In this document: one piece after another, positions 4,159 to 24,643 of the stretch
Layout: each line of letters begins with the position of its first letter
Numbering within the stretch: the stretch's first letter is position 1
Assembly: GCF_030540875.1 (NCBI RefSeq)
Contig: NZ_JAUOEM010000003.1
Coordinates: forward strand, 1-64,000
Length of the DNA stretch: 64,000 nt
Direction of reading: 5' to 3'
From: Flavivirga amylovorans
GTDB lineage: Bacteria > Bacteroidota > Bacteroidia > Flavobacteriales > Flavobacteriaceae
Made by a program: the position numbers and the translations under genes
The notes under the pieces: generated by a model
Databases searched by the model: none
What the model was told of the DNA's origin: nothing
Seen by the model: only the letters and a program-made list of their open reading frames with translations

Positions 4159-6108
4159 ATGAAAATCAAAATAGTTACACTTAAACTTTCTTTAGTACTA
4201 GTACTGTTTATGATATATCAGTACAGTCCAGCACAAACTGAGAATAGTAAGCTCATTCGTGCAAATAAAAAATATAATGAGTACGAATATGTTAACGCAA
4301 CCGATATCTATTTACGCGTTGTAAATTCAGGATACACATCCGAAGAAGTATTTCAAAAACTAGGGAACACCTATTATTTTAATTCAAAATACGAAGACGC
4401 ATTAAAATGGTATAAGGAATTGATGCAGTTAAATGCCAACCCCGAAGATCCCATTTATTTATTAAGATATTCGCAAACATTAAAAGCTTTAAGCAAACAT
4501 AAAGAATCTGAAGCCGTGTATAATAGCTTTTTAAAACGCATAGATAATAACGATTCAAAATTCTCTACAACAAAAAGTTATTTAGACATTATAGCAGAAA
4601 ACTCTAACCGGTATGCAGTAACTCCAGCCTCTATAAACACTTCAGAGAGTGAATATGGAAGCACCATTATGAATAATAAATATATATATGCCACTGCCCA
4701 AAGATCTGGTAGCCTTTCAAAGACTATAGATAATTGGACAGGAAAATATTTTTTAGATTTATGGGAAGCCAGCTATAACGAAGATGGTAGTTTAGGAAAA
4801 GGAAAGAAGATGAAAAATGGACTTAATTCTAAGTATCATGAGTCGTCTTTAACGTTTACTAAAGATCGTAAAACCGTATATTTTACACGAAGCAGTAACA
4901 CGTCTAAAACGAGTAAAAAAAAGAAGCAAAGTAGTAACTTAAAAATTTATCGCGCTACAAAACAAGCGAATGGTGACTGGGGAAATATTGAAGATTTATC
5001 CATAAATGGGGATAGCTACTCTACCGCACATCCATCATTAAGTCCCGATGAAAAAACATTGTATTATTCATCTAATCAACCAGGGGGCTTAGGAGAAACA
5101 GATATATATATGGTTACTATAAATAGTAATGGGTCGTTTAATGTGCCAAAAAATATGGGACCTAGTGTAAACACCAAAGGAAGAGAGGCTTTTCCGTTTA
5201 TAAGTAAAGATTATGAATTGTATTTTTCTTCAGACGGCCACTATGGTTTAGGAGGCTACGATGTTTTTTATTTAGATCTTAAACAAAAAGTACTACAAAT
5301 GATAAATGTTGGCGTGCCAATTAATAGCCCGGAAGATGATTTCGCATTCTTTATAAATAATACCACAAAAAAAGGCAGCTTTAGTTCTAATAGACCTGGA
5401 GGTCAGGGGGCAGATGATATTTATTTATTTGAAGAACTTAAAACGATTAAAGAAGCCACCAGAGCCATTTTAGTGGGAACTGTAGAAGATGAAGATACGC
5501 TAGAACCCTTAGCAAATGTTCTTGTACAGCTTAAAGATGAACAAAATAATATAATAGACGAAATGACGACCACTAGTGGTGGCGTTTATAATTTTGATTA
5601 TAACCGGTATTACAATCATATAGTAGAAGCTAATAAAACCGATTATGTAGGAACTAACGAATTTGTAAAAGCCAATATTACTGCTAAAAAAGTTGTTAGA
5701 GATTTAAAATTAAAACGAAACATTTCAGAAGTTAAAGACAATACAGAAATTACCGATGCGGTAGATTTACAACCTATATACTTTGACTTTAATAAAGCGA
5801 CCATACAGGAAGATTCAAAAATTGAATTAATGAAAGTGGTTGCCTTTATGAAGGAACAACCAACTGTTAAAATAAAAGTAGGAGCCCATACAGATAGTCG
5901 CGGAAATGATGCCTATAATTTAGCATTGTCTGAGCGTAGAGCTAAGTCAACAATAAATTTTATTATAAAACAAGGCATCTCAAAAAACCGTATTATGGGT
6001 GAAGGATATGGTGAAAGTCAATTAAAAAATAATTGTACAAATAATTCTAATTGTAGTGAAGAAAAACACCTTCTAAATAGAAGAAGTGAGTTCATTATTG
6101 TTAAATAA
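4159..6108 (+). CDS. OmpA-family protein with TPR, PD40 and carboxypeptidase-regulatory-like domains (PorE-like)
   Basis: The 649-residue protein starts with a signal peptide (about 1-25). TPR-like helices cover about 28-130, WD40-like PD40 repeats ('HPSLSPDEKTLYYSSNQPGG' and similar) about 220-430, a carboxypeptidase-regulatory-like beta domain about 445-515, and an OmpA peptidoglycan-binding domain about 538-649. The OmpA part keeps 'HTDSRGND' with Asp579 and 'LSERRA' with Arg594, the residues expected to hold diaminopimelate. This architecture matches PorE-type proteins that tie T9SS complexes to the cell wall. It is last in the apparent operon with the cargo and PorP/SprF genes and is followed by a strong terminator at 6256. 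Confidence 0.9.
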   Translation: MKIKIVTLKLSLVLVLFMIYQYSPAQTENSKLIRANKKYNEYEYVNATDIYLRVVNSGYTSEEVFQKLGNTYYFNSKYEDALKWYKELMQLNANPEDPIYLLRYSQTLKALSKHKESEAVYNSFLKRIDNNDSKFSTTKSYLDIIAENSNRYAVTPASINTSESEYGSTIMNNKYIYATAQRSGSLSKTIDNWTGKYFLDLWEASYNEDGSLGKGKKMKNGLNSKYHESSLTFTKDRKTVYFTRSSNTSKTSKKKKQSSNLKIYRATKQANGDWGNIEDLSINGDSYSTAHPSLSPDEKTLYYSSNQPGGLGETDIYMVTINSNGSFNVPKNMGPSVNTKGREAFPFISKDYELYFSSDGHYGLGGYDVFYLDLKQKVLQMINVGVPINSPEDDFAFFINNTTKKGSFSSNRPGGQGADDIYLFEELKTIKEATRAILVGTVEDEDTLEPLANVLVQLKDEQNNIIDEMTTTSGGVYNFDYNRYYNHIVEANKTDYVGTNEFVKANITAKKVVRDLKLKRNISEVKDNTEITDAVDLQPIYFDFNKATIQEDSKIELMKVVAFMKEQPTVKIKVGAHTDSRGNDAYNLALSERRAKSTINFIIKQGISKNRIMGEGYGESQLKNNCTNNSNCSEEKHLLNRRSEFIIVK

Positions 6109-6732: not shown

Positions 6733-7488
6733 ATGGAAGAATATACCGCCATCGTTATTGACGACCACAATGATTCAATGGAGCTTTTAAGGCTCTGTTT
6801 GAAAAAATATTGCCATAATATTAAAGAAACTTATGGCGCTACAGATATACCAGACGCTTTGCTAAAAATACAAAAGTATGAACCAGATATTATTTTTTCA
6901 GATATTATGCTAGGTGAAGAGACCGCTTTTAACCTTTTGGATAGATTAGGAAAGGTTGATAGCGAAATTATTTTTACAAGCTCATTTAAAGAGTTTGCTT
7001 TAAAAGCTATAGATTATGACGCCTCTAATTATTTATTAAAACCTATAGATGTTAAAGAGTTGGTTGTAGCCGTTAGCAGGGTATCAGAAAAATTAAAGAC
7101 CAAAACGTACCTGAAGGAATTAGAGCAGAGCAACGGCAAATTAAAAAAATATAGTAACAAAGATATTATTGCTATTCCTTCTACTATGAAGGTAGAGATT
7201 ATAAAAGTTAATGATATTATTTTTTGTGAAGCCGAGCGTAGTTATACGATGATATACCTTATAGACGGCTCTACTAAAGTGTCCAGTAAAAACTTGTTAG
7301 AATACGAAAACTTGCTAGTATCAAGAGGTCCTTTTTTTAGAATCCATCATAAATATCTAGTTAACTTAAATATGGTGGAGAATATTAATAAGGCAGCAGG
7401 TAACTATTGTGAGATGATTAATAAAAAATCATTGCCCATTTCGAAACGTAAACGTGAAAAACTATTTAAGTTTTTAGGACTCTCATAA
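6733..7488 (+). CDS. LytTR-family response regulator
   Basis: The 251-residue protein has a receiver domain (about 4-120) and a LytTR DNA-binding domain (about 145-250). The receiver keeps the acidic pair Asp10/Asp11, the phospho-acceptor Asp57, Thr82 and Lys103. The LytTR part contains 'IIFCEAERSYTMIYL' and 'FFRIHHKYLVNL', hallmarks of the fold. It should bind DNA when phosphorylated by a histidine kinase, but no kinase gene is nearby, so it is an orphan here. It precedes the two small HTH-like genes and the DUF285 surface gene, so control of that cassette is possible but unproven. Confidence 0.9.
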   Translation: MEEYTAIVIDDHNDSMELLRLCLKKYCHNIKETYGATDIPDALLKIQKYEPDIIFSDIMLGEETAFNLLDRLGKVDSEIIFTSSFKEFALKAIDYDASNYLLKPIDVKELVVAVSRVSEKLKTKTYLKELEQSNGKLKKYSNKDIIAIPSTMKVEIIKVNDIIFCEAERSYTMIYLIDGSTKVSSKNLLEYENLLVSRGPFFRIHHKYLVNLNMVENINKAAGNYCEMINKKSLPISKRKREKLFKFLGLS

Positions 7489-8830: not shown

Positions 8831-10789
8831 ATGAATAAAATGATCATGCACCAATTACAAAAAAAAATACAGGGACTCACCCTGTTGTTATTGTGCTCTA
8901 TGGGGGCTATGGCACAAGCAGAGTATATTACCACATGGAACACGGAAAACTCTGGAACATCTAATAATAACTCTATAATCATACCAGCTATTGGCCGCTA
9001 TGATGTGGATATTGGTAATGATGGAAGTTATGAGTTGCTTAATCAAACAGGTACAATTACTATTGATGTTACAACACATGGTTATCTTGGGGGAGAGATA
9101 CAAATAGCTATGCGTAATGCAATTTCTGGAGCAGGAAATTTAGAGCGCATTTTATTTGGTATTGGTAGTACTGATGCCGAAAAAATAATCTCTATAGATC
9201 AATGGGGGAGTAGCATTGCATGGACTAGCATGGAGTCTGCTTATGCAGGATGTATTAATTTGGATGTGCTAGCTAACGATACGCCAAATTTAAGTATAGC
9301 AACAGATTTGAATCGTATGTTTTTTGGTTGTAGCTCAATGGTGGGGTCTTCGGTATTTAATTCCTGGGATGTCTCTAATGTGACTATTATGGCTAACATG
9401 TTTAATACAACGCCCTTCAATCAGCCTCTAAACAATTGGGATGTCTCTAGTGTTACTACTATGTTAACTATGTTTGAAAGAACTCCTTTCAACCAGCCTC
9501 TAAATACTTGGGATGTCTCTAATGTGACAAATATGAGAGGCATGTTTTTTAAAAATACAGCATTTAATCAACCTATAGATACTTGGGATGTCTCTAGTGT
9601 TACTAATATGTTAGCTATGTTTCAAGGAACTCCTTTCAACCAGCCTCTAAATACTTGGGATGTCTCTAATGTAACTCTTATGCAAGGTATGTTTCAAGAA
9701 ACTCCTTTCAACCAGCCTCTAAATAATTGGGATGTCTCTAGTGTGACAAATATGGGAGTGATGTTTTTTAAAAATACTGTATTTAATCAACCTCTAAATA
9801 CTTGGGATGTCTCTAATGTGACAAATATGAGAGGCATGTTTTTTAAAAATACAGCATTTAATCAACCTATAGATACTTGGGATGTCTCTAGTGTTACCAA
9901 TATGCAAGTTATGTTTCTAGGAACTCCTTTCAACCAGCCTCTAAATAATTGGGATGTGTCTAGTGTTACCAATATGGAGAGTATGTTTGCTTTTTCTCCA
10001 TTTAATCAACCTATAGATACTTGGAATGTCTCTAGTGTTACTAATATGGAGAGGATGTTTTCTGGTAATCCATTTAATCAGCCTATCGATGTTTGGGATG
10101 TCTCTAATGTGACTAACATGAGAGGCATGTTTTTTACAAATCCAGGATTTAATCAACCTATAGGTACTTGGGATGTGTCTAGTGTTACCGATATGCGAGG
10201 TATGTTTAATACAACTTCTTTCAATCAGCCTATAGATGCTTGGGATGTCTCTAACGTGACTAACATGAGTGATATGTTTTTTCAAAATGCTATATTTAAT
10301 CAACCTCTAGATACTTGGGATGTCTCTAGTGTTACTACTATGGAATCCATGTTTACAGATGCTTCAGTATTTAATCAATCTCTAGATTCTTGGGATGTCT
10401 CTAATGTGACTAATATGAGAATCATGTTTCGTGGTGCTTCAGCATTTAACCAAAATCTTGGTAGCTGGGATATAGATAACGTAACTGATGCAAGGGGTTT
10501 TTTAAATAACAGTGGTCTTTCAATTGCCAATTGGGATGCCACGTTAACAGGCTGGCATGCACAAGGTTTTAACAATTCTAATGTTGAGGTAGGTGCCAGA
10601 AGACTGCAATTTTGTAATGCACAAGCACAGCGTGAAGCTATGGAAACAGTTGGTATATTTACGTTTGTAGACGATGTTTTAAACTGTAGTACACCAATTA
10701 ATTTGAATGTAGACGCAAGGTTGCGCCATGGGAAACTTTTCTTAAATGGCAAAGAACAACCTATGGTTACTGGTAGAAATACGAACTAA
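8831..10789 (+). CDS. BspA-like surface protein with 16 DUF285 repeats
   Basis: The 652-residue protein has a signal peptide (about 10-30, ending 'AMAQAE'), a unique N-terminal domain to about 165, then 16 consecutive DUF285 units of about 24 residues with consensus FNQPxxxWDVSxVTNMxxMF. Units tend to alternate between 'SNVT' and 'SSVT' forms, suggesting amplification of a two-unit block. The C-terminus is a tail of the form DARxRHGKxFLNGxEQPM, nearly the same as that of the gene at 1-1674; no standard T9SS domain is present. BspA-like proteins are typically surface adhesins. The gene lies between the two copies of a 230-bp duplication. Confidence 0.9.
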   Translation: MNKMIMHQLQKKIQGLTLLLLCSMGAMAQAEYITTWNTENSGTSNNNSIIIPAIGRYDVDIGNDGSYELLNQTGTITIDVTTHGYLGGEIQIAMRNAISGAGNLERILFGIGSTDAEKIISIDQWGSSIAWTSMESAYAGCINLDVLANDTPNLSIATDLNRMFFGCSSMVGSSVFNSWDVSNVTIMANMFNTTPFNQPLNNWDVSSVTTMLTMFERTPFNQPLNTWDVSNVTNMRGMFFKNTAFNQPIDTWDVSSVTNMLAMFQGTPFNQPLNTWDVSNVTLMQGMFQETPFNQPLNNWDVSSVTNMGVMFFKNTVFNQPLNTWDVSNVTNMRGMFFKNTAFNQPIDTWDVSSVTNMQVMFLGTPFNQPLNNWDVSSVTNMESMFAFSPFNQPIDTWNVSSVTNMERMFSGNPFNQPIDVWDVSNVTNMRGMFFTNPGFNQPIGTWDVSSVTDMRGMFNTTSFNQPIDAWDVSNVTNMSDMFFQNAIFNQPLDTWDVSSVTTMESMFTDASVFNQSLDSWDVSNVTNMRIMFRGASAFNQNLGSWDIDNVTDARGFLNNSGLSIANWDATLTGWHAQGFNNSNVEVGARRLQFCNAQAQREAMETVGIFTFVDDVLNCSTPINLNVDARLRHGKLFLNGKEQPMVTGRNTN

Positions 10790-10808: not shown

Positions 10809-11033
10809 CCTTTTACATTAAGGAGAACATAGTTATTTATTAAAAGGAAAGACTCATTGACTTGGTAGCTTCACTTTTACAAAGCAATATAGTCAGTCCA
10901 CAACACCCTTAAGAATTACGAAAAACAAACATAACACGACAGTTATTTCTTAAATCGACCACTTATCGTTTAGTATTGTCATGTCTCAACTTTTGATTTT
11001 ACATTTAGTATTGCTATAGGCAACTAGCTATGG
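10809..11033. repeat. 230-bp direct duplication, copy 2
   Basis: Imperfect copy of 8359-8592 placed directly after the DUF285 gene. It carries a non-coding remnant of the 3' end of the second HTH-like gene, which shows that copy 1 is the likely ancestral site and that the DUF285 gene entered by duplication or insertion. Confidence 0.8.
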
Positions 11034-12238: not shown

Positions 12239-12943
12239 ATGAATCTTCGCTTTAAAATTAAGATAAAGATAGAATTGATACGGTTACAAAACATACAAGC
12301 AATCCTCTTTTTAGTACTAAGTTTTACCTGTTATGCTCAGGCTCAAATAACTGTAAACACTAATAAAACTGTCGTTGTTATAGCATGAGTTTGTCAGGCA
12401 ATGAAAACATCATGGCTATAGGAACCCATGAAGCCAATAATAACAGTACAAAATCGTGGCGTATACGCATATATAAAATAATTCAGGAGTATGGGTAGGA
12501 GCACATCAAACAAGGAAATGTGTTAACAGGTTATGTAAGCGTGTATAAAAACATATCAGGAAACTGGGAGCAAATAGGAAACGATATTGCAGGAGAACCA
12601 AAAGGTAATTTTTTAGGATGGAATATCAGTTTGTCCAATAATGGTACTACTGTGGCTATAGCAGCATATAAGAATAATAAAAAAGGAAAAAGACATGCGT
12701 ACGTCCGTATGTATCAAACCAAAGGAGGGACTTGGGTTCAAAGAGGTACAGATATAGACGGTAAAACAACGGGCTATGACGTATCAGGCTTTAATAATAT
12801 AAACTTAGGTAGGGATACAATCACCCTCCTGGGAGCCTATGATAAAGATAGTAGCCTAACATACACCAATTATAAACTATGTACGTGTGTATAAATGTAA
12901 CAGTTCAGATATATGGAAGCAGATAAATACAAATATATAAACC
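12239..12943 (+). pseudogene. Decayed secreted beta-propeller (FG-GAP-like) protein gene
   Basis: An ATG at 12239 opens a signal-peptide-like leader that stops at 12386. The frame then shifts, and 'SMSLSGNENIMAIGTHE' begins at about 12382. An in-frame TAG at 12496 interrupts it, and the same frame continues to 12897 with 'VYKNISGNWEQIGNDIAG', 'ISLSNNGTTVAIAA' and 'WVQRGTDIDG'. A further shift near 12880 would add 'YVRVYKCNSSDIWKQI' up to about 12943. These motifs match the N-terminal propeller of the protein at 17656-20793. At least two frameshifts, one nonsense codon and loss of the C-terminus show it is dead. Confidence 0.75.
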
Positions 12944-13125: not shown

Positions 13126-13164
13126 ATGAAAAGACAATTACAATTATCTGAGATTCAGGAATGA
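13126..13164 (+). pseudogene. Start-of-gene stub of a BspA-type surface protein
   Basis: Twelve codons read MKRQLQLSEIQE and then stop. The first seven match the starts of the LRR proteins at 23728 (MKRQLKL) and 24643 (MKKQLQL). The likely explanation is a deletion that left only the leader start and fused it to unrelated sequence. Confidence 0.45.
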
Positions 13165-13256
13165 AGAGACGCAGAGTTGAGTTTGGCTTAATGCGCCGTA
13201 AAGAAGCATTAAAATTCCTATCGAAAAGTCGAAATGAGTTCGTAAACAACATGTAA
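13161..13256 (+). CDS. Possible 31-residue peptide upstream of ibrA
   Basis: An ATG overlapping the stop of the stub at 13126 opens a frame of 31 codons, rich in Arg and Lys, ending 15 bases before the ibrA start. The part 'RRKEALKFLSKSRNEF' resembles the helix-turn-helix of small excisionase-like proteins ('RKEAxxFLxVSRxT'). It may be a small DNA-binding peptide, a leader, or a degraded gene. The evidence is only position and this weak likeness. Confidence 0.3.
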   Translation: MKRRRVEFGLMRRKEALKFLSKSRNEFVNNM

Positions 13257-13271
13257 TAATATTATATAATA

Positions 13272-14450
13272 ATGCCCAAAAACTATCGAGACGAAAACGT
13301 CTATATCTCAGCTAAAAAGCGTATGCAAGATATATTTAACACCTTTCCAAAGGTATATGTAGCATTTAGTGGCGGTAAAGACAGTACCGTTATGCTACAT
13401 TTAGCCTTAGAAATAGCCAAATCCGAAAACCGCTTACCACTTGATGTCTTATTTGTTGATTTGGAAGGACAATATGATACCACCATTAAGCATATTGAAG
13501 AGGTGGCTGTAAAAAAATCAGAAGAAATTAACCTACATTGGGTTTGTTTACCTTTAAACCTTAGAAATTCGGTGAGTGTTTTTCAACCACATTGGCGCTG
13601 TTGGGATCCAGAACAATCTGAAGCATGGATTCGTCCCATGCCACAACATCCTCAGGTAATATCAAACCCAGAACAGTATCCATTTTTTAAATATGGAATG
13701 GAATTCGAAGATTTTGTATATCAATGGGGCAATTGGTTTTCAAACGGCGAATTATCCACATGCTTATTGGGAATTCGGTCAGACGAAAGTTTAAATAGAT
13801 TCTTTTCGGTAACCACCAACGGTTGGCGCAGAAGAAACTGGATGAGTAAAGCGTCAGAAAACCTCATATTTTCATATCCTATTTACGATTGGCGAACCGA
13901 GGATGTCTGGCGTTATGTAGGCAAGAAAAAAATAAAGTATAATAAACTCTATGACTATTTTTATTTATGCGGAATCTCCATTCATAAAATGCGTATTTGC
14001 CAACCTTATGGAGATGATCAGCGTCAAAGTTTAGTCTATTACCACCAAATTGAGCCAGAAACCTGGAATAAGGTGGTAAGACGTGTTCATGGCGTTAACT
14101 TTGGTGCGTATTACAGTAAAACAGCTGTTCTTGGAAGAGTTAAGGTAATACTTCCCGAAGGCCTAACATGGAAAAAGTACGCTTATATTTTACTAGAATC
14201 CATGCCGGAAATCACCAGAAAGCATTATACAGGCAAAATCAAAACCTTTCTCAGATGGTGGGAGAATAATGGATTTTCTTTAGAGCTTATCCCAGATCAG
14301 GGCAACTTAAAATTAGAAAACTCAGGAAAGTTACCGTCTTGGAGAAGAATATGTAAATGTATCATTAAAAACGATTGGTGGTGTAGAAGTTTAGGCTTTA
14401 CCCAAACCAAAAATACATATAAAACTCTGTATGCTAAAAAGATAGCCTAA
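13272..14450 (+). CDS. ibrA: IbrA-like PAPS-reductase-family protein (DUF3440)
   Basis: The 392-residue protein has an N-terminal PP-loop ATPase domain of the PAPS reductase superfamily with SGGKDST at 33-39, then a C-terminal DUF3440 region ending near 'SWRRICKCIIKNDWWCRSLGF'. This two-part layout is that of IbrA, known from E. coli as a co-activator, with IbrB, of prophage-borne immunoglobulin-binding (eib) surface-protein genes. Enzymatic activity of IbrA is not established; the PP-loop suggests ATP-dependent chemistry. The stop overlaps the start of the ibrB-like gene by one base, so the two are co-translated. The pair lies among pseudogenes and an integrase remnant, consistent with transfer. 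Confidence 0.85.
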   Translation: MPKNYRDENVYISAKKRMQDIFNTFPKVYVAFSGGKDSTVMLHLALEIAKSENRLPLDVLFVDLEGQYDTTIKHIEEVAVKKSEEINLHWVCLPLNLRNSVSVFQPHWRCWDPEQSEAWIRPMPQHPQVISNPEQYPFFKYGMEFEDFVYQWGNWFSNGELSTCLLGIRSDESLNRFFSVTTNGWRRRNWMSKASENLIFSYPIYDWRTEDVWRYVGKKKIKYNKLYDYFYLCGISIHKMRICQPYGDDQRQSLVYYHQIEPETWNKVVRRVHGVNFGAYYSKTAVLGRVKVILPEGLTWKKYAYILLESMPEITRKHYTGKIKTFLRWWENNGFSLELIPDQGNLKLENSGKLPSWRRICKCIIKNDWWCRSLGFTQTKNTYKTLYAKKIA

Positions 14451-15058
14451 TGATCAAGAATATCGAACAAGAGGTCCTCTCTATTCTAAAGGAAAGTCAA
14501 GATATCCCAGAAGAAAACAAAACGGAGTTAATAAAGAAGGTCTTAGACGTCTGTAATCAATTTGTAGAACCTGTTTCACAAGTGTTGTGGGTACCCATAA
14601 ATACCATTATGCCAAATGCTTACAATCCTAATAAAATAGCCATGCCAGAAAAGCGTTTGTTACTCCGTTCTATGCTAGATCATGGCATGACTTTACCCTT
14701 AATAGTATCAGTTAAACAACAACAGCACTATATGTTGATTGATGGCTACCACCGTTGGAATCTCATTAAAAAAAGTAAAGTATTGCAGCGTAGATTAAAC
14801 CATAAAGTACCAGTAGTAATATTAGATCTTCCCAAAACAGAACAAATAGTGGCTAGCATACGGCACAATAGGGCTAGGGGAAAGCATCAAATAGCAGAGA
14901 TAAGCGAGGTAGTAAAAACATTATCAGTCAATGGGTGGTCGTCAAAAAAAATTATGGAAGCATTAGGGATGGATGCAGATGAGGTACTAAGACTTAAGCA
15001 ATTCAAAGGTCTTGGAGAATTATTTAAAGACGAAGATTATTCTCAATCATGGTATTGA
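14450..15058 (+). CDS. ibrB: IbrB-like ParB-domain protein
   Basis: Residues about 44-130 of 202 form a ParB/Srx-like N-terminal domain: 'VPINTIMPNAYNPN', then 'LLRSMLDHGMTLPLIV', then 'YMLIDGYHRW' (GYHRW at 99-103). The last replaces the usual GxRR box and is typical of this branch. A helix-turn-helix-like segment follows (about 150-185, 'EVVKTLSVNGWSSKKIMEALG'). IbrB works with IbrA in gene activation in E. coli. The start codon overlaps the ibrA stop (TAATG). The protein could bind DNA or act as a nucleotide-dependent partner of the PP-loop protein; neither is shown by sequence alone. Confidence 0.85.
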   Translation: MIKNIEQEVLSILKESQDIPEENKTELIKKVLDVCNQFVEPVSQVLWVPINTIMPNAYNPNKIAMPEKRLLLRSMLDHGMTLPLIVSVKQQQHYMLIDGYHRWNLIKKSKVLQRRLNHKVPVVILDLPKTEQIVASIRHNRARGKHQIAEISEVVKTLSVNGWSSKKIMEALGMDADEVLRLKQFKGLGELFKDEDYSQSWY

Positions 15059-15088
15059 GTTGTCATCTTATTGACTTTACCAATAAGT

Positions 15089-16129
15089 ATGAATACAAAA
15101 GAAAACACATCAGAAGAAATAGATTTAGGACAGTTATTCAAACTTATTGGTAATGCGATAAATACTTTTTTTAATCGTATTGCTTTTATTTTAAAAACGA
15201 TATTTCATCTTTTCATAGTTACTTTGCTGTTCTTTAAAGGTCATTTTTTAAAGTTTAGTTTGGCGACTTTCTTGGGTGTTGGGGTCGGAGGGTATATAGA
15301 TTATACAGCATCACCGCTCTATAAATCCGTTATGATTATTCAGTCTAATTTTAATAGTACGAGACAACTTTATAGTAATATTGATTTTTATAATCAGTTA
15401 GTAAAAAATCAAGAAACCAAGGAGCTATCTGAAGTATTGCATATATCCCAGTCAATAGCAAAAAGTATAAAAAATATAGAAATAACAGGAGTTTCAGATG
15501 AAATACAAAAACTAAAACAATTTGGCGAGTTTATTAAAAACCTAGATTCTGTAACATTAAAGAATGTAGATTATCAAGACTACTTGCAGGAGTTTAATGA
15601 TATAAATGCAGAATTTCACCAAGAAGTCCAAATAGAAGCTACAGCACCCGAAACGGCTAAACAATGCCAAAAAGGAATCGTTACATCTATAGAGAACAAT
15701 GAATACTTCAAACTTCAGAAAAAAGTTAATGAAGATAATATCATGGTCATAGACTCCATGATAAAGAAGCAGCAAAGGGAAATCAATAAATTACAATCGT
15801 TTTATAAAGAGATAAGACTCTTAGAAGCGCAACAACCGGTAGGAGCAACTAATATTAATTTAACAGATAACAAAATTGAGCGAATATCAGAAATAGAACT
15901 ATTTAATCAGATAAAAAAATTAAAAGAAGAGGAAGTAAAACTAAACATAGAGAAAGCAAAAACAAAAAGTACTGTTAATATAATTTCAGAATTTCCTGAA
16001 AGAGGAATATTGAAAAATGATTTTTTTTCTAAAAAAATAATCCAGATGCCACTCTTTTTTATAAGTGGGTTATTTTTAATATTAATAATGTATGTTTTTA
16101 ATAAGTACTTGGCCAACTACACTAAATAA
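15089..16129 (+). CDS. Orphan Wzz-like (chain-length-determinant-type) membrane protein
   Basis: The ATG at 15089 is preferred over an in-frame TTG at 15071. The protein (346 residues) has a hydrophobic segment at about 40-70, a long helical, Lys/Glu-rich and probably coiled-coil region of about 230 residues, and a C-terminal membrane segment near 320-340. Two membrane helices around a large periplasmic helical domain is the layout of Wzz/polysaccharide co-polymerases, without a tyrosine-kinase domain. No glycosyltransferases, Wzx or Wzy are nearby, so it is isolated. It lies only 30 bases after the ibrB-like gene and could be in the same transcript. Family assignment is by architecture, not by strong motifs. 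Confidence 0.6.
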   Translation: MNTKENTSEEIDLGQLFKLIGNAINTFFNRIAFILKTIFHLFIVTLLFFKGHFLKFSLATFLGVGVGGYIDYTASPLYKSVMIIQSNFNSTRQLYSNIDFYNQLVKNQETKELSEVLHISQSIAKSIKNIEITGVSDEIQKLKQFGEFIKNLDSVTLKNVDYQDYLQEFNDINAEFHQEVQIEATAPETAKQCQKGIVTSIENNEYFKLQKKVNEDNIMVIDSMIKKQQREINKLQSFYKEIRLLEAQQPVGATNINLTDNKIERISEIELFNQIKKLKEEEVKLNIEKAKTKSTVNIISEFPERGILKNDFFSKKIIQMPLFFISGLFLILIMYVFNKYLANYTK

Positions 16130-16382: not shown

Positions 16383-16883
16383 ATGAGAGCACCATGGAAA
16401 CTATTACTACCGCTATTACTTATAGATTTACTTTCCTGTTCAACAAATGAAATGGAACAAAACCCAACTCAGGAAAAGATTGATTTAGCATTGGTAAATG
16501 AGAATGAATGGGACATATCTAATGCCATTTTAGAGGCTATAAATAGGCATCGGGAAAACATGGGAATAAACATATTATTAAAGGATACATCCTATGCAAC
16601 AGCTTATGCTGTTCGCCATAGTAAGTATATGGAAGCCACCAAAAGTGTAAACCACAACAACTTTTTTATTAGAAGTGCAGCCTTAAAAGAGAAAGGAGCA
16701 AAAGAAGTGAGTGAAAATATAGCCTATGGGTATAGCACAGCAGCAACAGTAGTGAACGCTTGGTTAAAAAGTGATGCACACAGGAAAGTTCTAGAAGGTA
16801 ATTTTTCGCATATAGGATTTGGAGTTATAAAATCGTCAGATGGCAGGTACTATTATACAACCCTATACTATAGTTTTGGCTAG
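16383..16883 (+). CDS. CAP-domain (SCP/PR1-like) lipoprotein
   Basis: The 166-residue protein has a lipoprotein signal ending 'LLSC' with Cys19 as the lipid site. A CAP domain follows (about 45-166) with the family's blocks: 'INRHRENMG', 'AVRHSKYM' (His near 80), 'NHNNF', 'VSENIAYG' and 'AWLKSDAHRKVLEGNFSHIGFG'. Bacterial CAP proteins are secreted or surface-anchored; their function is largely unknown. This one is likely held at the outer membrane. It stands alone, with 250 bases upstream and a hairpin (16895-16925) downstream. Confidence 0.85.
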   Translation: MRAPWKLLLPLLLIDLLSCSTNEMEQNPTQEKIDLALVNENEWDISNAILEAINRHRENMGINILLKDTSYATAYAVRHSKYMEATKSVNHNNFFIRSAALKEKGAKEVSENIAYGYSTAATVVNAWLKSDAHRKVLEGNFSHIGFGVIKSSDGRYYYTTLYYSFG

Positions 16884-17655: not shown

Positions 17656-20600
17656 TTAATAATTGACATATATCATTTTTGTTTCGTGTCCCAGCTCTGG
17701 TTCGTTGTAGTCTATAACACATACATAGGAGCCAACGGGCACCCGTCCGCCTTTATGGGTGCCGTCCCAGGCATCGCCGGGGCCGCCATAATGGGCGCTA
17801 AACAGCAACCGCTGGCTTAGGTTATATATTTTCACCACATTGTTTCTATACTTTTCAAGGCCTTCGATCACCAGGGTATCGGCAATGCCATCGCCGTTGG
17901 GAGAAAACCCTCTATTGAAATCCGCAAGAGGTTGGTCCTCACAATTGTTGGTAGTTTCTACGGTAACCAGAGCCATCGCTGTGGCTGTATTGCTGCCTTG
18001 TTCAGCGGTAAGGGTCACCGTTACCGGGGTACCAACATCGTCACAGGTAAAAGTACTCTTGTCCAGGCTCAATTCCGGGATGTTGCCACAGCCATAATTG
18101 GAACCATCGTTCACATCTTCTGGTGAGATGGTCGCCTGCCCGCTGGCATCCAGCTGCACGGTAATATCTTTTGCAATGGCCACTAGATTGTCCAAAGGCA
18201 CTTCCACGGTCACCAAGGCCCTCGCTGTGGCTGTATTGCTGCCTTGTTCAGCGGTAAGGGTCACCGTTATCGGGGTGCCCACATCATCACAGTCAAAGGT
18301 ATCCCTGTCCAGGCTCAATTCCGGGATGTTGCCACAGCCATAATTGGAACCATCGTTCACATCTTCTGGTGAGATGGTCGCCAGTCTATCGGCATCCAGC
18401 CACACGGTGATATCTTTTGCAATGGCCACCAAGTTGTCCAAATGTTCTTCAATGGTTACCACAGCGGTCGCCGTATCTGAATTATTGCCCTGTGTAGCTG
18501 TAAGGGTCACCGTTATCGGGGTACCCACATCATCACAGTCAAAGGTATCCCTGTCAAGGCTCAATTCCGGGATGTTGCCACAGCCATAAGCGGAACCATT
18601 GTCCACATCTTCTGGTGAGATCGTGAACTGCCCATTGGGATCCAACTGTACGATTATATCTTTTGCAATGGCTACCAGGTTGTCCAAATGCGCTTCTACG
18701 GTTACTGTTGCTGTTGCCGTTGCCGTTTCACTACCCTGTTTGGCCGTAAGCACAACGGTCGCCATGCCCACGTCGTCACAGGTAAAAACGTTCCTGTCCA
18801 GACTTAATGAAATGGGGTTGGTGTTGTTACAACCACTCCCGGAACCATTGTCTATTTCCCCGGGGCTGATGGAGGCCTCTCCGTCGGCATTCAATTGAAC
18901 GGTCATATCTTTGGCCGCTGCCACAAGGTTATTGGTATTATTTTCCACGGTCACCACAGCGGTCGAGATATCCGTTTGATTACCAGAAGTAGCAGTAAGG
19001 GTTACGGTTACCGGAGTTCCTACATCGCTACAGGTAAAGGTATCCCTGTCCAGGCTTAGTGTGAGCGCAGCTCCATGGCCGCAGTTATGGCCGGAACCGT
19101 CGTTCAGATCCTCTGGTGAGATGGTCGCTAGACCATTGGGAGCCAACTGTACGGTAATGTCCTTGGCGGACGCTACAACCCCGGTGTTGACAACGACCTC
19201 CTGCGCTGCTAAATTGGGGATGTTGGAATTTATATCGAATGCCGAACTTGCAGGAATATTAATGGTAATATCGTCATCGTCGCCACATATGGATATAGGT
19301 GTAACGGCAACTGTATATGTGGATGCGTTGACGACCGTAAAATTACCAATTGTGGCATTGGTAACAGCAATATCTCCTTCGTTAAAATCGGTAACGCCTC
19401 TATCGAAGGTAAAGGTCACTTCAAAAGGATCTGTAGTATTTACTGCTGCCGGTGCGCCCTGTATGGAAACACCAATTTCGCCTATATAGTACATACGTGC
19501 CCGACCAATTAACAGATTGTACCCAGTAGTAGTATTAAAACCATGGTCAGAAGCTCCCATGGCTAACACAGCCCCATCTGAAGATAAACTAAGACTGTTA
19601 CTGCTGCCCAACAGATGCCCTCTATGTTCACCATCAAAATCAGTTACTAACTGCCAGGTATTATAGGAACTATATTTATAAATACTTACTCTGCCCACAC
19701 TTAATAGATTATTAAGACTGACATGGGGCGTCCCTACCACTAAAGTATTTGCATCATCAGATAATGCTATGCCATATCCAAAAGCCCCTTTTAGTTCATT
19801 GCCTTTCTGGGGCCATTTATCATTATTATTGGCACTTCTTTTATACACACGTACAGATCCATCTACAGCTGAAGTTATGGCCAGGGTATTCCCGTCTCTT
19901 GTTAGCCGTACATAGCCCCCTCTATCATCACGGGTAACCGTTCCTTGATTACCTGTAAAATCACCTGCCTGAACCCAAGTGCCGTTATCATTTTTATATA
20001 CTCTTGTTATTAACCCCTTAGAATCCCATCTTGTTCTATTCTCGACAGTATATGGTGATCCAAGATGAAGCGCTACCATGGCCAGGGTGTTACCGTCATT
20101 GGATATGCTCACACTTACCCCCAACCGTTCGCCCTCTGACCGCCCTTCAATATCGCTGCCTATTTGTACCCAATTATCATTGGTATCTCTTCTATATACC
20201 CGTACCTGGCCAGCATTAGAAAGGCCGTTAACGTCAAAAAACGGAGCTCCTATGGCCACGACATTACCATCTCCGGACAAACTCACATCAAATCCCGATA
20301 GGCTCCATGCTTGCGTACCATCAATATCATTGCCTATTTGTACCCAATTATCAAGGGCATCTCTTCTATACACACGTACATGGCCTGCATCTGTACCCGT
20401 TCCATCATTACCTCTGGCTCCTATAGCCAGAACAGTACCATTATGCGACAAGCTTATGGTTCTTCCGAATTCTTCTCCTTTACGGGTTCCTAAATTGGTT
20501 TCTGATGCTATTGTATCACCTATTTGTTCCCACTTAAAACCACCCGGAGATTGGGTATCTCTTATTTTTCCATAAACACGTACAGTTCCATTATTACTAA

Positions 20601-20793
20601 ATTGATTTACACTCCAGCATCCTATGGCTACGGTATTGCCATCTGCCGACAGACTTGTGGTTTCCCCCAGACCATGATGATCTTGATCCCCTATGATAGG
20701 GTGTCCTATTGGTTCCTGGCCATAACTACTTAAGCTTATGAAGCCCAAGAGGATGGCATATCGTTTTAATTGTAATAGTATTTGGGTTTTCAT
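17656..20793 (-). CDS. Large secreted protein: beta-propeller plus HYR-like repeats and T9SS type-B domain
   Basis: The 1045-residue protein has a signal peptide (about 8-26), then FG-GAP-like propeller repeats to about 450 ('LSxDGNTxAIG ... VRVYxR ... NWVQIG'). An Ig-like domain lies at about 455-545, followed by five HYR-like modules of about 82 residues ('AKDITVQLD ... ATISPEDV ... SLDRDTF ... VTVTLTA'). The last 85 residues (about 960-1045) are a CHU_C/type-B sorting domain with 'FSPNGDGIADT' and 'VKIYN'. It should be exported by T9SS. The propeller is the closest intact relative of the pseudogene at 12239. The repeat half is much richer in GC than neighbouring genes. Target or ligand unknown. 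Confidence 0.9.
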   Translation of the reverse strand: MKTQILLQLKRYAILLGFISLSSYGQEPIGHPIIGDQDHHGLGETTSLSADGNTVAIGCWSVNQFSNNGTVRVYGKIRDTQSPGGFKWEQIGDTIASETNLGTRKGEEFGRTISLSHNGTVLAIGARGNDGTGTDAGHVRVYRRDALDNWVQIGNDIDGTQAWSLSGFDVSLSGDGNVVAIGAPFFDVNGLSNAGQVRVYRRDTNDNWVQIGSDIEGRSEGERLGVSVSISNDGNTLAMVALHLGSPYTVENRTRWDSKGLITRVYKNDNGTWVQAGDFTGNQGTVTRDDRGGYVRLTRDGNTLAITSAVDGSVRVYKRSANNNDKWPQKGNELKGAFGYGIALSDDANTLVVGTPHVSLNNLLSVGRVSIYKYSSYNTWQLVTDFDGEHRGHLLGSSNSLSLSSDGAVLAMGASDHGFNTTTGYNLLIGRARMYYIGEIGVSIQGAPAAVNTTDPFEVTFTFDRGVTDFNEGDIAVTNATIGNFTVVNASTYTVAVTPISICGDDDDITINIPASSAFDINSNIPNLAAQEVVVNTGVVASAKDITVQLAPNGLATISPEDLNDGSGHNCGHGAALTLSLDRDTFTCSDVGTPVTVTLTATSGNQTDISTAVVTVENNTNNLVAAAKDMTVQLNADGEASISPGEIDNGSGSGCNNTNPISLSLDRNVFTCDDVGMATVVLTAKQGSETATATATVTVEAHLDNLVAIAKDIIVQLDPNGQFTISPEDVDNGSAYGCGNIPELSLDRDTFDCDDVGTPITVTLTATQGNNSDTATAVVTIEEHLDNLVAIAKDITVWLDADRLATISPEDVNDGSNYGCGNIPELSLDRDTFDCDDVGTPITVTLTAEQGSNTATARALVTVEVPLDNLVAIAKDITVQLDASGQATISPEDVNDGSNYGCGNIPELSLDKSTFTCDDVGTPVTVTLTAEQGSNTATAMALVTVETTNNCEDQPLADFNRGFSPNGDGIADTLVIEGLEKYRNNVVKIYNLSQRLLFSAHYGGPGDAWDGTHKGGRVPVGSYVCVIDYNEPELGHETKMIYVNY
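17935..19190 (-). repeat. Five HYR-like coding repeats, 246-bp period in the most similar copies
   Basis: The most similar copies are spaced exactly 246 bp (82 codons), for example at about 18098, 18344 and 18590. The earlier two (towards 19190) are more divergent. GC content is about 50-67 percent in lines I counted, against clearly lower values around it. Confidence 0.75.
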
Positions 20794-21133: not shown

Positions 21134-23728
21134 TTATTTTATGCTAATTTTTTTAACAGCTTTAGCGCCTGTTTTGGTTGTTACTTCCAGTATATACATC
21201 CCGCCGGATAAATGGCTTACATCTAATGGTGAGGTGTGTGTTGTATACAAATGGGCACCTAGCATGTTGTAGATGTTTACTTGCTCTAACGCTTGCCCAT
21301 CGCTTAATCGGATGTGGATCTTATCTTGTGCCGGATTGGGATAGACTGTAAAATCCCTGAGCTCATTTGTATTATTTAAAGACATTGTCACATCACCATT
21401 GATACTTTTAAACCCTCCCCAGAAATCATCATCTCTATAAGCTTGTTCGGCACTTTCAGGTACTATCAAATCTATTTCATGACGACGGTCTAGAAAATTA
21501 AGACTATTGTCTGTTAGTGATACTGATCCTGTCGTAAAGACTTGTTGGTTAATATGTCTACCAGGTATTAAACTACCAAGAGTTGTCAAATCTATAATAT
21601 GTGATGGGGGGGACTCTGCCTTTATCTCCACTTTCACAAGGGCTGGGGCAATCGAAAAAGCCCATGCCCCAATAGTATCTAGTTCTTTTGGTAAGATTAC
21701 TTCCTTCAATTTGGTCTCAGCAAAAGCTCTGTTTCCGATAACGGTCACATTATCTGGTATCACAACTTTGATAAATTTTGAGTTTGAGTTCTTACTAAAC
21801 GTACTATTTGGGATAAATTCCATTTTTTCTGGAATGGTAACTTGTTCAAAGTTGTTTTTGCTAAAAACATTTGTCCCCATATGTCCCTTTGTGATATTTT
21901 TTGATATGGTAACACTGGTCAATCCGTTTCCTTCAAAAGCAGCAGCTCCAATAGCTGTTACACTGTTGGGTATAACAACATTGGTCAATGCATTAAACTG
22001 AAAAGCAGCAGATCCAATACTTGTTACACTGTCTGGTATATCAACGCTCGTTAACCTGACGACAGGAGCGTTAGGATCCTCTGGTTTTTGGAATGCTGCA
22101 GGCCCTATAGCAGTTACCTTAAACTCAATTAGGTTGCCTACCGTTCTGTCTTCAGGAATCTCTATATCGGTATTGGTAGCTGAGTCGTCGTATCCAGATA
22201 CTCTAACCTCATAATAGGGGTTATTATTTAACGATGTGATTTCGTATTCGATGTTTTTATCATCGGTAAAGGTATCTATAACGTTGTTAAAGCCCGTCCA
22301 GCCATCTACAAATTTATCTCTATTATCTACACTTATTATTAAATCTATTTGGCTGCGGGCTGCTGCATCGCCAAAGGGGTTTTCTGAGTCATCCATAGAT
22401 ATAGATGGGGCTCTGGTACTTTTTATGTCACCTTCTACTACCACTATGTCAAGGGCGTTATCCTTAAAAGCATTATTACCAATACTGCTCACTCTGTTTG
22501 GTATGGTCACACTGGTCAATTGGTTATTAGAAAAGGCGCTTTCCCCAATACTTGTTACATTCTCGGGTATGTCAATACTAGATAATTGTTTACCACTAAA
22601 AGTCCCCGGACCGATGCTGGTGACCTTATATTCATATCCTGTTACCTTATATTCCGTAACATCATTAACATCATCATTATTAATATCAATATAATTATAT
22701 TCAAATACAATATTACTAACTGTTTCAGGGATATTTACATTAGTTAGTTGTCCCTGTCCCTGATACCCCATTACCATAACCTCGCCACCACCGGGAGTTA
22801 TTTTTGTTATTTTGTACGTGATATCATTAACGGTAAAGCTCTCTTCTCTAATGGTTTTAAAATAGTTTCCAACATACCAATTTCTATAAACAGACGCTTT
22901 CCCTTCGGGCACTATCAAATCTATTACACCATTGCGGGGCAGAGGGGGTAGGGGGTCATTTGTCCCTGCAACTACATATTGAGCACGTGTTGTTGTAAAT
23001 ATATCGCTTCCAACAGTATGAATCTCCGGTTTAGTAATCGGCGTACCCGGCGGTTCAATAGGTTTCATAAACACTGTGACAATCCCACGTTTTACTGGTA
23101 GTGGTACACCTTGTCCATGATGACTAGGACCTGAGGGGTTATTTGCAAAAGCCCATTCTTTAATAGTTTTTACATTTTCTGGGATGGTCACACTATTGAT
23201 TAATTCGTTGGTGCCAAAAGCACTATTTCCGATAGTTTCCACACTATTCGGTATCTCAATACTTCTCAATTTATTGTTCTTAAAAATAGAGTCTTCGATG
23301 GTTACCAAATCTTCGGACATAGTAACACTGATCAACAGATTATTTTCAAAAGCTTGTTTTCCAATGGTGGTCACGTTCGATAAATCAATACTAGTTAATT
23401 CGTTATTAGCAAAAGCCTCTCTTCCAATACTAGTTACAGTAGGTGGTATGGTTATTTCCTTAAGCCTTTCAGAGCTAGAGGCGGTGGTAGGGTTAAAAAA
23501 AGCCTTTGCCCCTATAGCGACTACCGTATAGTTATTAACAATTTCGGGGATATCGACTTCTCTTGCCGTACCATCATAGCCTATAACCTTTACCTCAGTA
23601 GTCCCAGAAACAACTTCATATTGAATGTTATTATGAGTAAAGTTTTGTTGTCCATAAGTAGCTATTGATAGTAACAACATACTAAAAAACGTAAAACTCC
23701 ACTTTTTTAATTTTAATTGTCTTTTCAT
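21134..23728 (-). CDS. BspA-type leucine-rich-repeat protein with T9SS type-A domain
   Basis: The 864-residue protein has a signal peptide (about 9-26) and many LRR_5 repeats of the form 'VTIPxxVxxIGxxAFxxNxLTSV', grouped in three blocks separated by 'ITKITPG/ITSLNN' spacer domains. The C-terminus (about 793-864) is a type-A sorting domain: 'FTVYPNPAQDKI', 'VNIYNMLG', 'LSGGMYILEV' and a final 'KKISIK'. T9SS should export and anchor it. It is 33 bases downstream of a shorter paralogue on the same strand, so they are likely co-transcribed. BspA proteins commonly mediate adhesion; the ligand is unknown. Confidence 0.9.
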   Translation of the reverse strand: MKRQLKLKKWSFTFFSMLLLSIATYGQQNFTHNNIQYEVVSGTTEVKVIGYDGTAREVDIPEIVNNYTVVAIGAKAFFNPTTASSSERLKEITIPPTVTSIGREAFANNELTSIDLSNVTTIGKQAFENNLLISVTMSEDLVTIEDSIFKNNKLRSIEIPNSVETIGNSAFGTNELINSVTIPENVKTIKEWAFANNPSGPSHHGQGVPLPVKRGIVTVFMKPIEPPGTPITKPEIHTVGSDIFTTTRAQYVVAGTNDPLPPLPRNGVIDLIVPEGKASVYRNWYVGNYFKTIREESFTVNDITYKITKITPGGGEVMVMGYQGQGQLTNVNIPETVSNIVFEYNYIDINNDDVNDVTEYKVTGYEYKVTSIGPGTFSGKQLSSIDIPENVTSIGESAFSNNQLTSVTIPNRVSSIGNNAFKDNALDIVVVEGDIKSTRAPSISMDDSENPFGDAAARSQIDLIISVDNRDKFVDGWTGFNNVIDTFTDDKNIEYEITSLNNNPYYEVRVSGYDDSATNTDIEIPEDRTVGNLIEFKVTAIGPAAFQKPEDPNAPVVRLTSVDIPDSVTSIGSAAFQFNALTNVVIPNSVTAIGAAAFEGNGLTSVTISKNITKGHMGTNVFSKNNFEQVTIPEKMEFIPNSTFSKNSNSKFIKVVIPDNVTVIGNRAFAETKLKEVILPKELDTIGAWAFSIAPALVKVEIKAESPPSHIIDLTTLGSLIPGRHINQQVFTTGSVSLTDNSLNFLDRRHEIDLIVPESAEQAYRDDDFWGGFKSINGDVTMSLNNTNELRDFTVYPNPAQDKIHIRLSDGQALEQVNIYNMLGAHLYTTHTSPLDVSHLSGGMYILEVTTKTGAKAVKKISIK

Positions 23729-23761: not shown

Positions 23762-24643
23762 TTATTTTATAATGACTCGCTTCACCACTTTCTCTCCTGC
23801 TTTGGTTTCTATTTCCAGCATATACATACCGCCAGGTAAATGGCTTATATCTATTTGCAGGGCGTTTGCCGAATACACATGTCTCCCCAGAGTATTGTAT
23901 AGGTTTACTTGCTGTAACGCTTCACCATCACTTAATGTAATGTGGATATTATCTTGTGCCGGGTTCGGGTAAACTGTAACAATGTTGCCCGCATTACCTT
24001 TATTATTATGGGCAGGTGCAAAGGCATCTTCGCGGAGCGATGGAGGAATGGTTCCCTCTGCTACCACTGTGGCAAGACCTGAGTTGTTCCAAAAAGCCCA
24101 ATCCCAAATATAGACTACACTGTTCGGTATGGTAACCTCGGTCAATTGATTGTCTAGGAAAGCATAACTCCCAATGCTGGTCACACTGGTCAATCGATTA
24201 TTGGAAAAAAAACACTCCCAAATATTGGTGACACTGTTGGGTATGACGATACTATCCAATTGGTTGACCACAAAAGCATAACTCCCAATATGTGTCACAC
24301 TGCCCGGTATGATAACCTCGGTTAAATTGTTAGTGGAAAAAGCCCAATCTCTAATATTAATTATACTGTTTGGTAGAGTCACACTGGTCAATCCTTTTTC
24401 TTTAAAAGCGTCGTTACCAATAACGGTCACCGTATAGTCCTGAACCGTTTCGGGGATAGTGACTTCTGTTGTTGTACCCATATAATCCGTAGTCTTTACG
24501 GTATTAGGGCTCAACGATGTAATTTTATATTCAAGGCCATCAACGGTAAAGGTGTTTCCTAAGTTGTTTTGACCGTAAGTGGTCACTGTTAACACTATAA
24601 AAAGAATGGCAAAGCTCCATTTTAATTGTAATTGTTTTTTCAT
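23762..24643 (-). CDS. Short BspA-type LRR protein with T9SS type-A domain
   Basis: The ATG at 24643 (MKKQLQL...) is chosen over one 54 bases upstream because it opens directly into a signal peptide and matches the start of the downstream paralogue. The mature protein (293 residues in all) has about six LRR_5 units ('IPNSVTxIxxxAFxxNxLT'). A type-A sorting domain follows ('VYPNPAQDNIHI ... VNLYNTLG ... LPGGMYMLEI ... KRVIIK'). It is a smaller relative of the 864-residue protein 33 bases downstream, and the first gene of the pair. Confidence 0.85.
   Translation of the reverse strand: MKKQLQLKWSFAILFIVLTVTTYGQNNLGNTFTVDGLEYKITSLSPNTVKTTDYMGTTTEVTIPETVQDYTVTVIGNDAFKEKGLTSVTLPNSIINIRDWAFSTNNLTEVIIPGSVTHIGSYAFVVNQLDSIVIPNSVTNIWECFFSNNRLTSVTSIGSYAFLDNQLTEVTIPNSVVYIWDWAFWNNSGLATVVAEGTIPPSLREDAFAPAHNNKGNAGNIVTVYPNPAQDNIHITLSDGEALQQVNLYNTLGRHVYSANALQIDISHLPGGMYMLEIETKAGEKVVKRVIIK

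Follow-up and report, generated by a model that had tools for sequence, protein, structure and literature searches.

The gene pair

This report concerns two overlapping genes that encode relatives of IbrA and IbrB in the marine flavobacterium Flavivirga amylovorans, within a stretch of 64,000 nucleotides (contig NZ_JAUOEM010000003.1, positions 1 to 64,000) that is referred to below as the window. Both genes are on the forward strand. The first one (13272..14450) encodes a 392 amino acid (aa) protein that, judging from Pfam, PHROG, alignment and AlphaFold, consists of an N-type ATP pyrophosphatase with the fold of phosphoadenosine phosphosulfate (PAPS) reductases and a DUF3440 domain. The second one (14450..15058) encodes a 202 aa protein with a ParB/Srx nucleotide-binding fold (Pfam, PHROG and Foldseek), followed by a helical region that resembles a helix-turn-helix (HTH) by eye. 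The overlapping pair was recognized in an original prediction made from the DNA letters alone, and the database matches agree with it. The two frames share 1 base (TAATG), IbrA matches PAPS_reduct (PF01507) at 9.9e-19 (68.5 bits versus a Pfam gathering score of 22.5) and DUF3440 (PF11922) at 2.7e-42 (145 bits versus 25), and IbrB matches ParB_N (PF02195) at 1.4e-8 in Pfam. Two phage protein families also match, phrog_2302 over IbrA residues 3-384 (E 8.2e-91) and phrog_2159 over IbrB residues 25-202 (E 1.8e-62). The Flavivirga genome (13 contigs, 4.86 Mb) has a single such IbrA.

The E. coli ECOR-9 IbrA and IbrB reportedly activate the prophage eib surface genes, and we know of no description of their chemistry since they were named. 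The window pair belongs to the same two families, in the same order and with overlapping genes, and surface genes are the targets or the neighbors in both cases. The window proteins are 41% and 47% identical to the proteins annotated as IbrA and IbrB in E. coli phage PhiR5_2, which were compared in place of the ECOR-9 proteins themselves. The E. coli IbrAB targets lie on prophages, whereas the cassettes here are in the same island as the pair and encode type IX-secreted proteins with leucine-rich repeats (LRR) or FG-GAP repeats. As the original prediction also stated, the pair lies inside a region of surface cassettes; PorP/SprF, DUF285, FG-GAP/CHU_C and LRR_5/Por_Secre_tail proteins were all found there. 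E. coli K-12 has a homologous pair, YbdN/YbdM (38% and 45% identity), in a different kind of locus, which contains citR, dsbG and ahpCF and, over the 12 kb read, no surface cassette.

The PP-loop SGGKDS and the GxRxxES motif are both intact in the window IbrA, and residues S33, G35-S38 (in the SGGKDS loop), D63, E65, E172, S173 and R241, among others, do not vary in the 86 relatives aligned. The AlphaFold model of IbrA (pLDDT 88) has as its top structure match the PAPS domain of FAD synthase (Z 15.7, root-mean-square deviation 2.5, 165 residues), followed by CysD (Z 14.9), the APS/PAPS reductases (Z about 14-15) and TilS (about 11-12). These matches span residues from about 5 to 261, and the DUF3440 extension lies outside the matches to FAD synthase, CysD and TilS, which are adenylating PP-loop enzymes. 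As modeled, the fold of IbrA is that of enzymes that activate a substrate with ATP. The structure match list contains no Dnd or Ssp structure, which weighs neither way.

Ten IbrB residues (D98, G99, H101, R102, R138, H139, N140, R143, G144 and H146) are invariant in 78 of 78 sequences and, from the alignment, these would be the residues of the ParB nucleotide pocket. The pocket arginine that accompanies the ParB fold is R102 (78/78), the Box II arginine being picked by reading the alignment. The IbrB model (pLDDT 83) has Noc, ParB and KorB as its best Foldseek matches and, more distantly, SbnI and sulfiredoxin. The model stops after the HTH-like helices, and the C-terminal dimerization domain of ParB clamps was not found in the 202 aa of IbrB, where ParB_N alone passes the Pfam cut-off. 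Between the window and its nearest relative (G248, same genus, IbrA 96% identical) the ratio of nonsynonymous to synonymous substitution rates is 0.10 in ibrA and 0.18 in ibrB, compared with 0.34 in the FG-GAP surface gene; the low ratios of ibrA and ibrB imply that purifying selection has kept the pair working.

The pair is widespread. Matches to IbrA are present in 216 phage records and to IbrB in 218, with nearly equal host tallies, and plasmid matches number 619 records by protein and 585 by DNA (E. coli query), including hundreds of enterobacterial plasmids. Among 5,426 E. coli genomes, 2,132 have a match, which covers at least 80% of the query in 2,017 of them. We read 179 loci, with the genome contigs taken from the best 80 of 576 relatives and the viral contigs from the best 80 of at least 369; two genomes are counted twice (L012/L040 and L013/L041). 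Both genes are present in 174 of the 179 loci; in one of these IbrB is encoded on the opposite strand, and in two it is over 1.5 kb from IbrA. Of the five loci without IbrB, three (L027, L074 and L085) run to a contig end or close to one, L168 begins near one and L043 is an orphan copy.

Surface genes near the pair in marine Bacteroidota

In a tree of 94 chosen IbrA rows (roughly one in two genome loci and one in three viral loci, with two very long phage branches, L019 and L020), the window is in a clade of 18 Bacteroidota rows that has a support of 97/100, holds none of the 33 phage or viral rows and does not join the enterobacterial rows. We refer to this clade as the marine lineage. Three Cytophagales rows, from Fulvivirga, Agaribacillus and a member of the Flammeovirgaceae, nest among the Flavobacteriaceae and therefore the cassette has crossed families.

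A member of the type IX secretion-type surface cluster or a PorP/SprF gene is present within the five genes called on either side of the pair in 13 of the 18 marine loci (17 genomes); this cluster was defined by single linkage at E 1e-5, and its members are not necessarily alike throughout. In six of the 18, a gene of a LytTR-type cluster, different from the window's gene at 6733-7488, is upstream of the pair, its LytTR identity being confirmed by Pfam in one locus, L011.

The LRR_5 domain was searched for in the whole genomes of 15 marine pair genomes (L029 and L030 were left out) and is present in 12 of them, the exceptions being G018, G211 and G310. In six of the 12 the pair is at most 10 kb from a BspA-type LRR_5 gene, versus an expected 0.13 (P about 1e-9 if the genomes are independent), and within 20 kb the number is seven versus 0.23. 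Some LRR_5 matches were merged into spans, which raises the expected value, and some pair ends are approximate. The six genomes are our own, G248, G301, G302, G303 and G299, the last with a weak match (3.3e-10) at 9.4 kb from the pair. No LRR_5 is near the pair in G300, G304, G305, G307 and G311; the test is limited in G305 and G307, where the pair contigs are about 8-13 kb, and in G304, where the contig ends 5.7 kb away from the pair. The five LRR_5 matches of the home genome (E up to 1e-6) are all at 21.6-24.4 kb of contig C7, each within 10 kb of the pair, and G019, a genome of the same genus without the pair, has no LRR_5. A degenerate second IbrA in G303 (Agaribacillus; C32:636994-637209, residues 319-390, with one TGA) is inside that genome's second LRR_5 cluster.

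The pair genomes are also enriched in the domain itself. A draw of 149 family genomes has 21 with LRR_5, our own included; with our own and G018 removed, the comparison is 12 of 15 pair genomes versus 20 of 147 other family genomes (Fisher 1.5e-7). For the Flavobacteriaceae alone, nine of 12 pair genomes have LRR_5 (Fisher 1e-5). DUF3440 is present in four of 299 family genomes, our own included. The original prediction had left it to a genome survey to decide if the pair is tied to surface genes, and such a tie is present in the marine lineage and also in the smaller, hand-picked enterobacterial sample described below. Extra IbrA copies occur in two more of the marine genomes, a partial second copy in G307 and two full copies in G305.

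Surface genes near the pair in enterobacteria and elsewhere

Fifteen non-phage enterobacterial loci were examined. Two are the ybdNM locus, and the other 13 were picked by hand, with their neighbors unseen, to span identity classes and hosts. The flanks are 6-9 kb long, L189 and L201 are cut by the record start and the plasmid gene tables are incomplete. Within these flanks, eight of the 13 loci have adhesin-type genes: an autotransporter (L188 and L191), a fimbrial protein (L190), Pef/F18-type fimbriae (L192), F4 fimbriae (L193), F17 fimbriae (L199), an inverse autotransporter (L200) and AfaD (L201). If the adhesin background is assumed, rather than measured, to be 10-30%, the binomial probabilities for eight of 13 are 8e-6, 0.0012 and 0.018. 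Outer-membrane receptor or barrel genes are near the pair in L189, L195 and L198. In five of the 13 (L192 and L196-L199) a gene for a PerC-family regulator comes straight after ibrB, and ibrA-ibrB-PerC may form a regulatory operon of three genes in E. coli and E. albertii.

Scattered examples come from other bacteria. A protein with a Fimbrial domain is beside the pair in Shewanella (L077), OprB is beside it in a Vibrio (L099) and a porin in a Vibrio plasmid (L028).

When the marine and enterobacterial rows are constrained to form one clade, the tree costs 51 log units and the approximately unbiased (AU) test, in which L016 was placed with the enterobacterial rows, gives a p of 0.049. It is likely, but not certain, that the surface link had two origins.

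A proposed control cassette for surface genes

The same partnership with surface genes in distant bacteria suggests that the pair controls cell-surface display. The reading that we favor, and to which we give roughly an even chance, is that this IbrAB-type pair derives from phages and acts as an enzymatic control cassette for the neighboring surface genes. The IbrAB cassette is probably of phage ancestry and would have been attached by bacteria to surface-protein loci, and the transfer presumably went from phage to host. Since the catalytic residues are conserved in the surface-linked lineage, the control, if real, is probably enzymatic. The original prediction proposed that the pair regulates the cassettes, and this idea came through the genome survey, which might have overturned it. 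The genetic link to surface genes stands; that the link is a regulatory one goes further than these results.

In the mechanism that we propose, IbrB, as a short ParB-fold protein with an HTH-like tail, would bind a nucleoside triphosphate and the island DNA. IbrA, as an adenylating PP-loop enzyme, would be brought to this DNA or to a small ligand and would activate its target with ATP, presumably by adenylation. The resulting modification or ligand would then free the surface genes from silencing, much as the ParB-like VirB acts against H-NS in Shigella, and the neighboring surface genes would most likely be switched on or tuned at the level of transcription. VirB and other regulators with the ParB-CTPase fold likewise use the ParB fold outside of partition, and VirB is described, in the parts of the literature available, as countering H-NS silencing and using cytidine triphosphate. 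IbrB differs from these regulators in its shorter length, in the RxNRAxG form of its Box III-like motif and in its almost constant association with a PP-loop enzyme.

In the available portions of prior work, IbrA and IbrB figure as co-activators or regulators on prophages, and a mechanism is not given. Literature on DUF3440, on PAPS reductase with ParB, on phosphorothioation with ParB and on fimbria plasmids, as far as its available text goes, contains no link of the pair with Bacteroidota surface genes, and the available main text of a ParB-fold survey (PMC12704722) makes no mention of PAPS, phosphoadenosine or IbrB. If the reading as a control cassette is true, an E. coli oddity would become a testable general rule, with a suggested phage-to-host route, and if catalysis is needed for the effect, surface variation would be under a kind of control not seen before.

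A number of observations weigh against this reading. Among the 18 marine loci, five (L039, L040, L041, L042 and L044) are without a surface neighbor of the kinds counted. One marine copy (L043) is without ibrB, and no operator common to the lineage emerged, the region 5' of ibrA being unconserved. For the LRR_5 linkage, G300 and G311 are true misses, and of the four pair genomes in the unbiased family draw, two have any LRR_5. In the home genome FG-GAP_2 is present at three places, one of them near the pair. Pair genomes tend to be large. The linkage P treats related genomes as independent and its null is a uniform position; therefore, shared accessory hotspots could explain part of the linkage. 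Five of the 13 enterobacterial loci (L189, L195, L196, L197 and L198) are without an adhesin gene and the ibrB of L198 is frameshifted. Fimbrial matches account for two of 87 immediate neighbors in other genomes, which indicates that the surface link is rare outside the marine and enterobacterial lineages, and no surface family is among the 25 listed of the 36 families found in 93 viral neighbors, a chosen set of nearest genes rather than all of them. Finally, the AU p is borderline, which leaves some probability for a surface link that arose once.

The pair in phages and a possible role in nucleic acid modification

In phages the pair is frequently placed among genes for DNA metabolism. Thirteen phage neighborhoods were read. 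A methyltransferase is in the operon in four of them: the order is ParB-DNA methyltransferase-IbrA-IbrB in a Rhizobium phage, ParB-PAPS-ParB-methyltransferase-HTH-terminase in Shrooms, ParB-PAPS-methyltransferase, with a ParB two small open reading frames (ORFs) further on, in a Bacillus phage, and three glycosyltransferases-acetyltransferase-methyltransferase-PAPS in Rasputia, where the stretch ends at the record end and has no IbrB in it. Gadjet has PAPS-ParB-terminase, and in both Gadjet and Shrooms the terminase is within three genes after the pair. The pairs of a Microcystis phage and of Nebkiss are placed among recombination, primase or helicase genes. In the neighborhoods of PhiR5_2, CHPC1230, FPSV-F7 and FCL-2 there is no annotated modification gene and no telling neighbor; one long PhiR5_2 gene was considered as an adhesin and rejected, as its product carries MuF_C and large-polyvalent-protein domains.

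These contexts would fit an explanation in which the pair is a phage-type nucleic acid or nucleotide modification enzyme, of general use in the chromosome and without a special tie to surface genes. In such a scheme IbrB would hold the nucleoside triphosphate or DNA, IbrA would adenylate a base or phosphate, and a methyltransferase, a GNAT acetyltransferase or a cupin would finish the product. Besides the methyltransferases and the Gadjet arrangement, this explanation is supported by a GNAT acetyltransferase that separates A from B in 15 of the 179 loci (by eye; Pfam agrees in both of those tested), an ectoine-synthase-like cupin (1.7e-35) adjoining IbrB in Pseudoalteromonas phage XCL1123 (L018 9332-9724) and a SNF2-type helicase domain in eight of 93 viral and ten of 87 genome neighbors. 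Nucleases, DNA methylases or recombination proteins are among the other viral-contig neighbors. In E. coli K-12, deletion of citR raises ybdN (log2 5.5), ybdM (log2 2.5) and the cysteine regulon, as if a sulfur pool were drained, according to the available part of that study (PMC9068703), and this rise may point to YbdNM as a consumer or sensor of a sulfur compound. The response may be secondary, however, since flagellar genes and lrhA change too. Citrate-lyase and flagellar genes also rise on citR loss in the same portion of the study (PMC9068703).

The explanation also leaves the surface linkage without a cause, four of the 13 phages show no annotated modification gene, as noted above, and, to our knowledge, there is no modified base that such pairs make. 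Overall, we consider it possible but rather unlikely. The original prediction had offered DNA or nucleotide modification, possibly as defense, as its alternative; modification receives backing from the phage contexts and defense receives little. Surface-gene control and nucleic acid modification are compatible. A bolder version would combine them. IbrAB would be an enzymatic epigenetic switch that was captured, on more than one occasion, from the DNA-modification modules of phages and that marks foreign surface-adhesin genes, or lifts their silencing, in bacteria of different phyla, with IbrB as the guide, IbrA adenylating a base, a phosphate or a ligand, and adhesin output following the mark. 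We regard this version as speculative and doubtful.

Among known modification systems, DndC, SspD and BrxP of the phosphorothioation systems share a PAPS-reductase-like fold with IbrA, the similarity being remote. The available part of a Mycobacterium abscessus prophage paper already notes that phage PAPS-reductase-like proteins resemble DndC (PMC8092301). DndC needs C280 for its iron-sulfur cluster, as stated in the available portion of PMC11662687, whereas the cysteines of IbrA vary across the family. None is invariant in a 19-row alignment of the wide family and, in the main IbrA clade, the counts are 86/86 for C243 (over-counted, as the search patterns for IbrA relatives contained it), 78/86 for C110, 62/86 for C361 and 66/86 for C371, with all four present in 53/86. 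As no DndC-type cysteine set is conserved family-wide, phosphorothioation by the Dnd route is unsupported. A Pfam scan of the window ORFs between 181 and 24697, the part of the genome searched, showed no DndD/DndE, SspB/SspC or other Dnd/Ssp gene, and some of these ORFs had no match at all.

Some further features of the phage loci can be mentioned. A protein of about 130 aa is encoded between ibrB and ibrA in 17 of the 179 loci by eye, including viral contigs L120, L128, L131, L134, L140, L141, L155 and L177; it has an NRxAWxGQAxC-type motif by eye, and neither of the two examples run against Pfam gave a match. This protein is a candidate third partner, and certain IbrB proteins of 370-500 aa may be fusions with it. 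In Mycobacterium phage Nebkiss (L023 7308-8207) an ectoine-synthase-like cupin is fused to IbrB, by eye from the alignment, and the C-terminal region of IbrA (about 320-377) is found again in small phage ORFs of its own (L023 8856-9146 and L018 10547-10855).

Other explanations

The pair could also be a passenger, riding a recombination-prone island that gathers surface genes as well, with no functional link between the two. The rearranged surroundings in the window, namely, a broken leader at 13126, fragments at 12520-12894 and 11760-12164 and the repeats around the DUF285 gene, speak for it, and most of the enterobacterial loci read have insertion sequence elements or transposase remnants. 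However, the strong purifying selection on the pair, the linkage in separate lineages, the PerC-family genes after ibrB and the retention of both genes together in nearly all of the loci all argue against a passenger, and we judge this explanation improbable.

A role as an anti-phage defense or anti-restriction device is very unlikely. The mobile distribution and the remote similarity of IbrA to DndC and BrxP, which PADLOC reports, would be in its favor, as would a few isolated neighbors: a Panacea-domain gene in PhiR5_2, ccdAB in L188, an 'anti-phage transmembrane ATPase' in L193 and a 'type I restriction' annotation in L015. Among the loci read, none of these neighbors turns up a second time and no restriction gene is a repeated partner, the pair is abundant in phages themselves and no PADLOC model matches IbrB.

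Many phage copies of IbrA are annotated simply as PAPS reductase, but a true sulfur-assimilation enzyme, or a plasmid-partition pair, has hardly any chance of being correct: the fold is all that speaks for either, the NCBIfam CysH/CysD models score far below their cut-offs (for CysH, TIGR00434 34.3 versus 165.1 bits and TIGR02057 33.4 versus 254.2), for which a metabolic PAPS reductase identity was rejected, the ECGLH motif that PAPS reductases carry is absent from the window IbrA, its partner has a ParB fold, and no ParA is among the window genes scanned with Pfam.

The surface-protein island and the DNA ahead of the pair

Upstream of the pair, the forward strand of the window encodes a CHU_C surface protein (1891..3144), a PorP/SprF type IX secretion membrane protein (3187..4116; 5.2e-89), an OmpA/PD40 protein (4159..6108), a response regulator with a LytTR DNA-binding domain (6733..7488) and a BspA-like DUF285 surface protein (8831..10789) that has direct repeats on both sides. 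Directly 3' of the pair is a gene (15071..16129, forward, 352 aa) with a likely start at the in-frame ATG at 15089. Its product has hydrophobic segments near both ends, looks like a chain-length determinant by eye and has no match above the Pfam cut-off; homologs adjoin the pair in L011 and L031, which makes three of the 18 marine loci. It is followed by a forward gene for a lipoprotein-like protein with a CAP domain (16383..16883; PF00188 in Pfam), a homolog of which is near the pair in L031. Three surface cassettes on the reverse strand come next. The first (17656..20793) has an FG-GAP_2 repeat, an Ig-like domain and a CHU_C type IX secretion signal, with a homolog at 12171-15302 of L011; the second (21134..23728) has BspA-type LRR_5 and Por_Secre_tail; and the third (23762..24643) has LRR_5 and Por_Secre_tail in an ORF called to 24697, with its leader MKKQLQL beginning at 24643. 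No Rfam family was found in the window at gathering scores.

The original prediction placed a 31-residue HTH-like peptide ahead of the pair (13161..13256, forward), which is unsupported as a gene. It has no Pfam HTH match, its best match being DUF7890 at E 0.044, and the corresponding stretch in G248 has no start codon and has stops in all three forward frames. What lies directly upstream of the pair is a broken surface-cassette leader on the forward strand (13126..13164), which reads MKRQLQLSEIQE-stop and resembles the way in which two LRR genes begin, at 23728 and at 24643. With one search expression, a truncated leader 5' of ibrA was found in the window alone among the 18 marine loci. We read the DNA ahead of the pair as a recombination scar and not as a regulatory gene.

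The window has other traces of rearrangement. The fragment at 11760-12164 is like a Bacteroidota tyrosine recombinase by eye (phrog_1 at E 0.12, no Pfam match) and the one at 12520-12894 is FG-GAP-like (E 0.069). The DUF285 gene at 8831-10789 is bracketed by direct repeats of about 170 nucleotides at 8375-8550 and 10824-10994, made up of pieces of 62, 75 and 20 nucleotides that are 90, 89 and 95% identical, and they look as if the cassette had been duplicated or were able to loop out. At the left end of the window, positions 95-1510 contain four copies of a 372-nucleotide unit, 96-97% identical to the first over 300 nucleotides, within a gene that runs off the end; the product of this gene is a recently expanded repeat protein.

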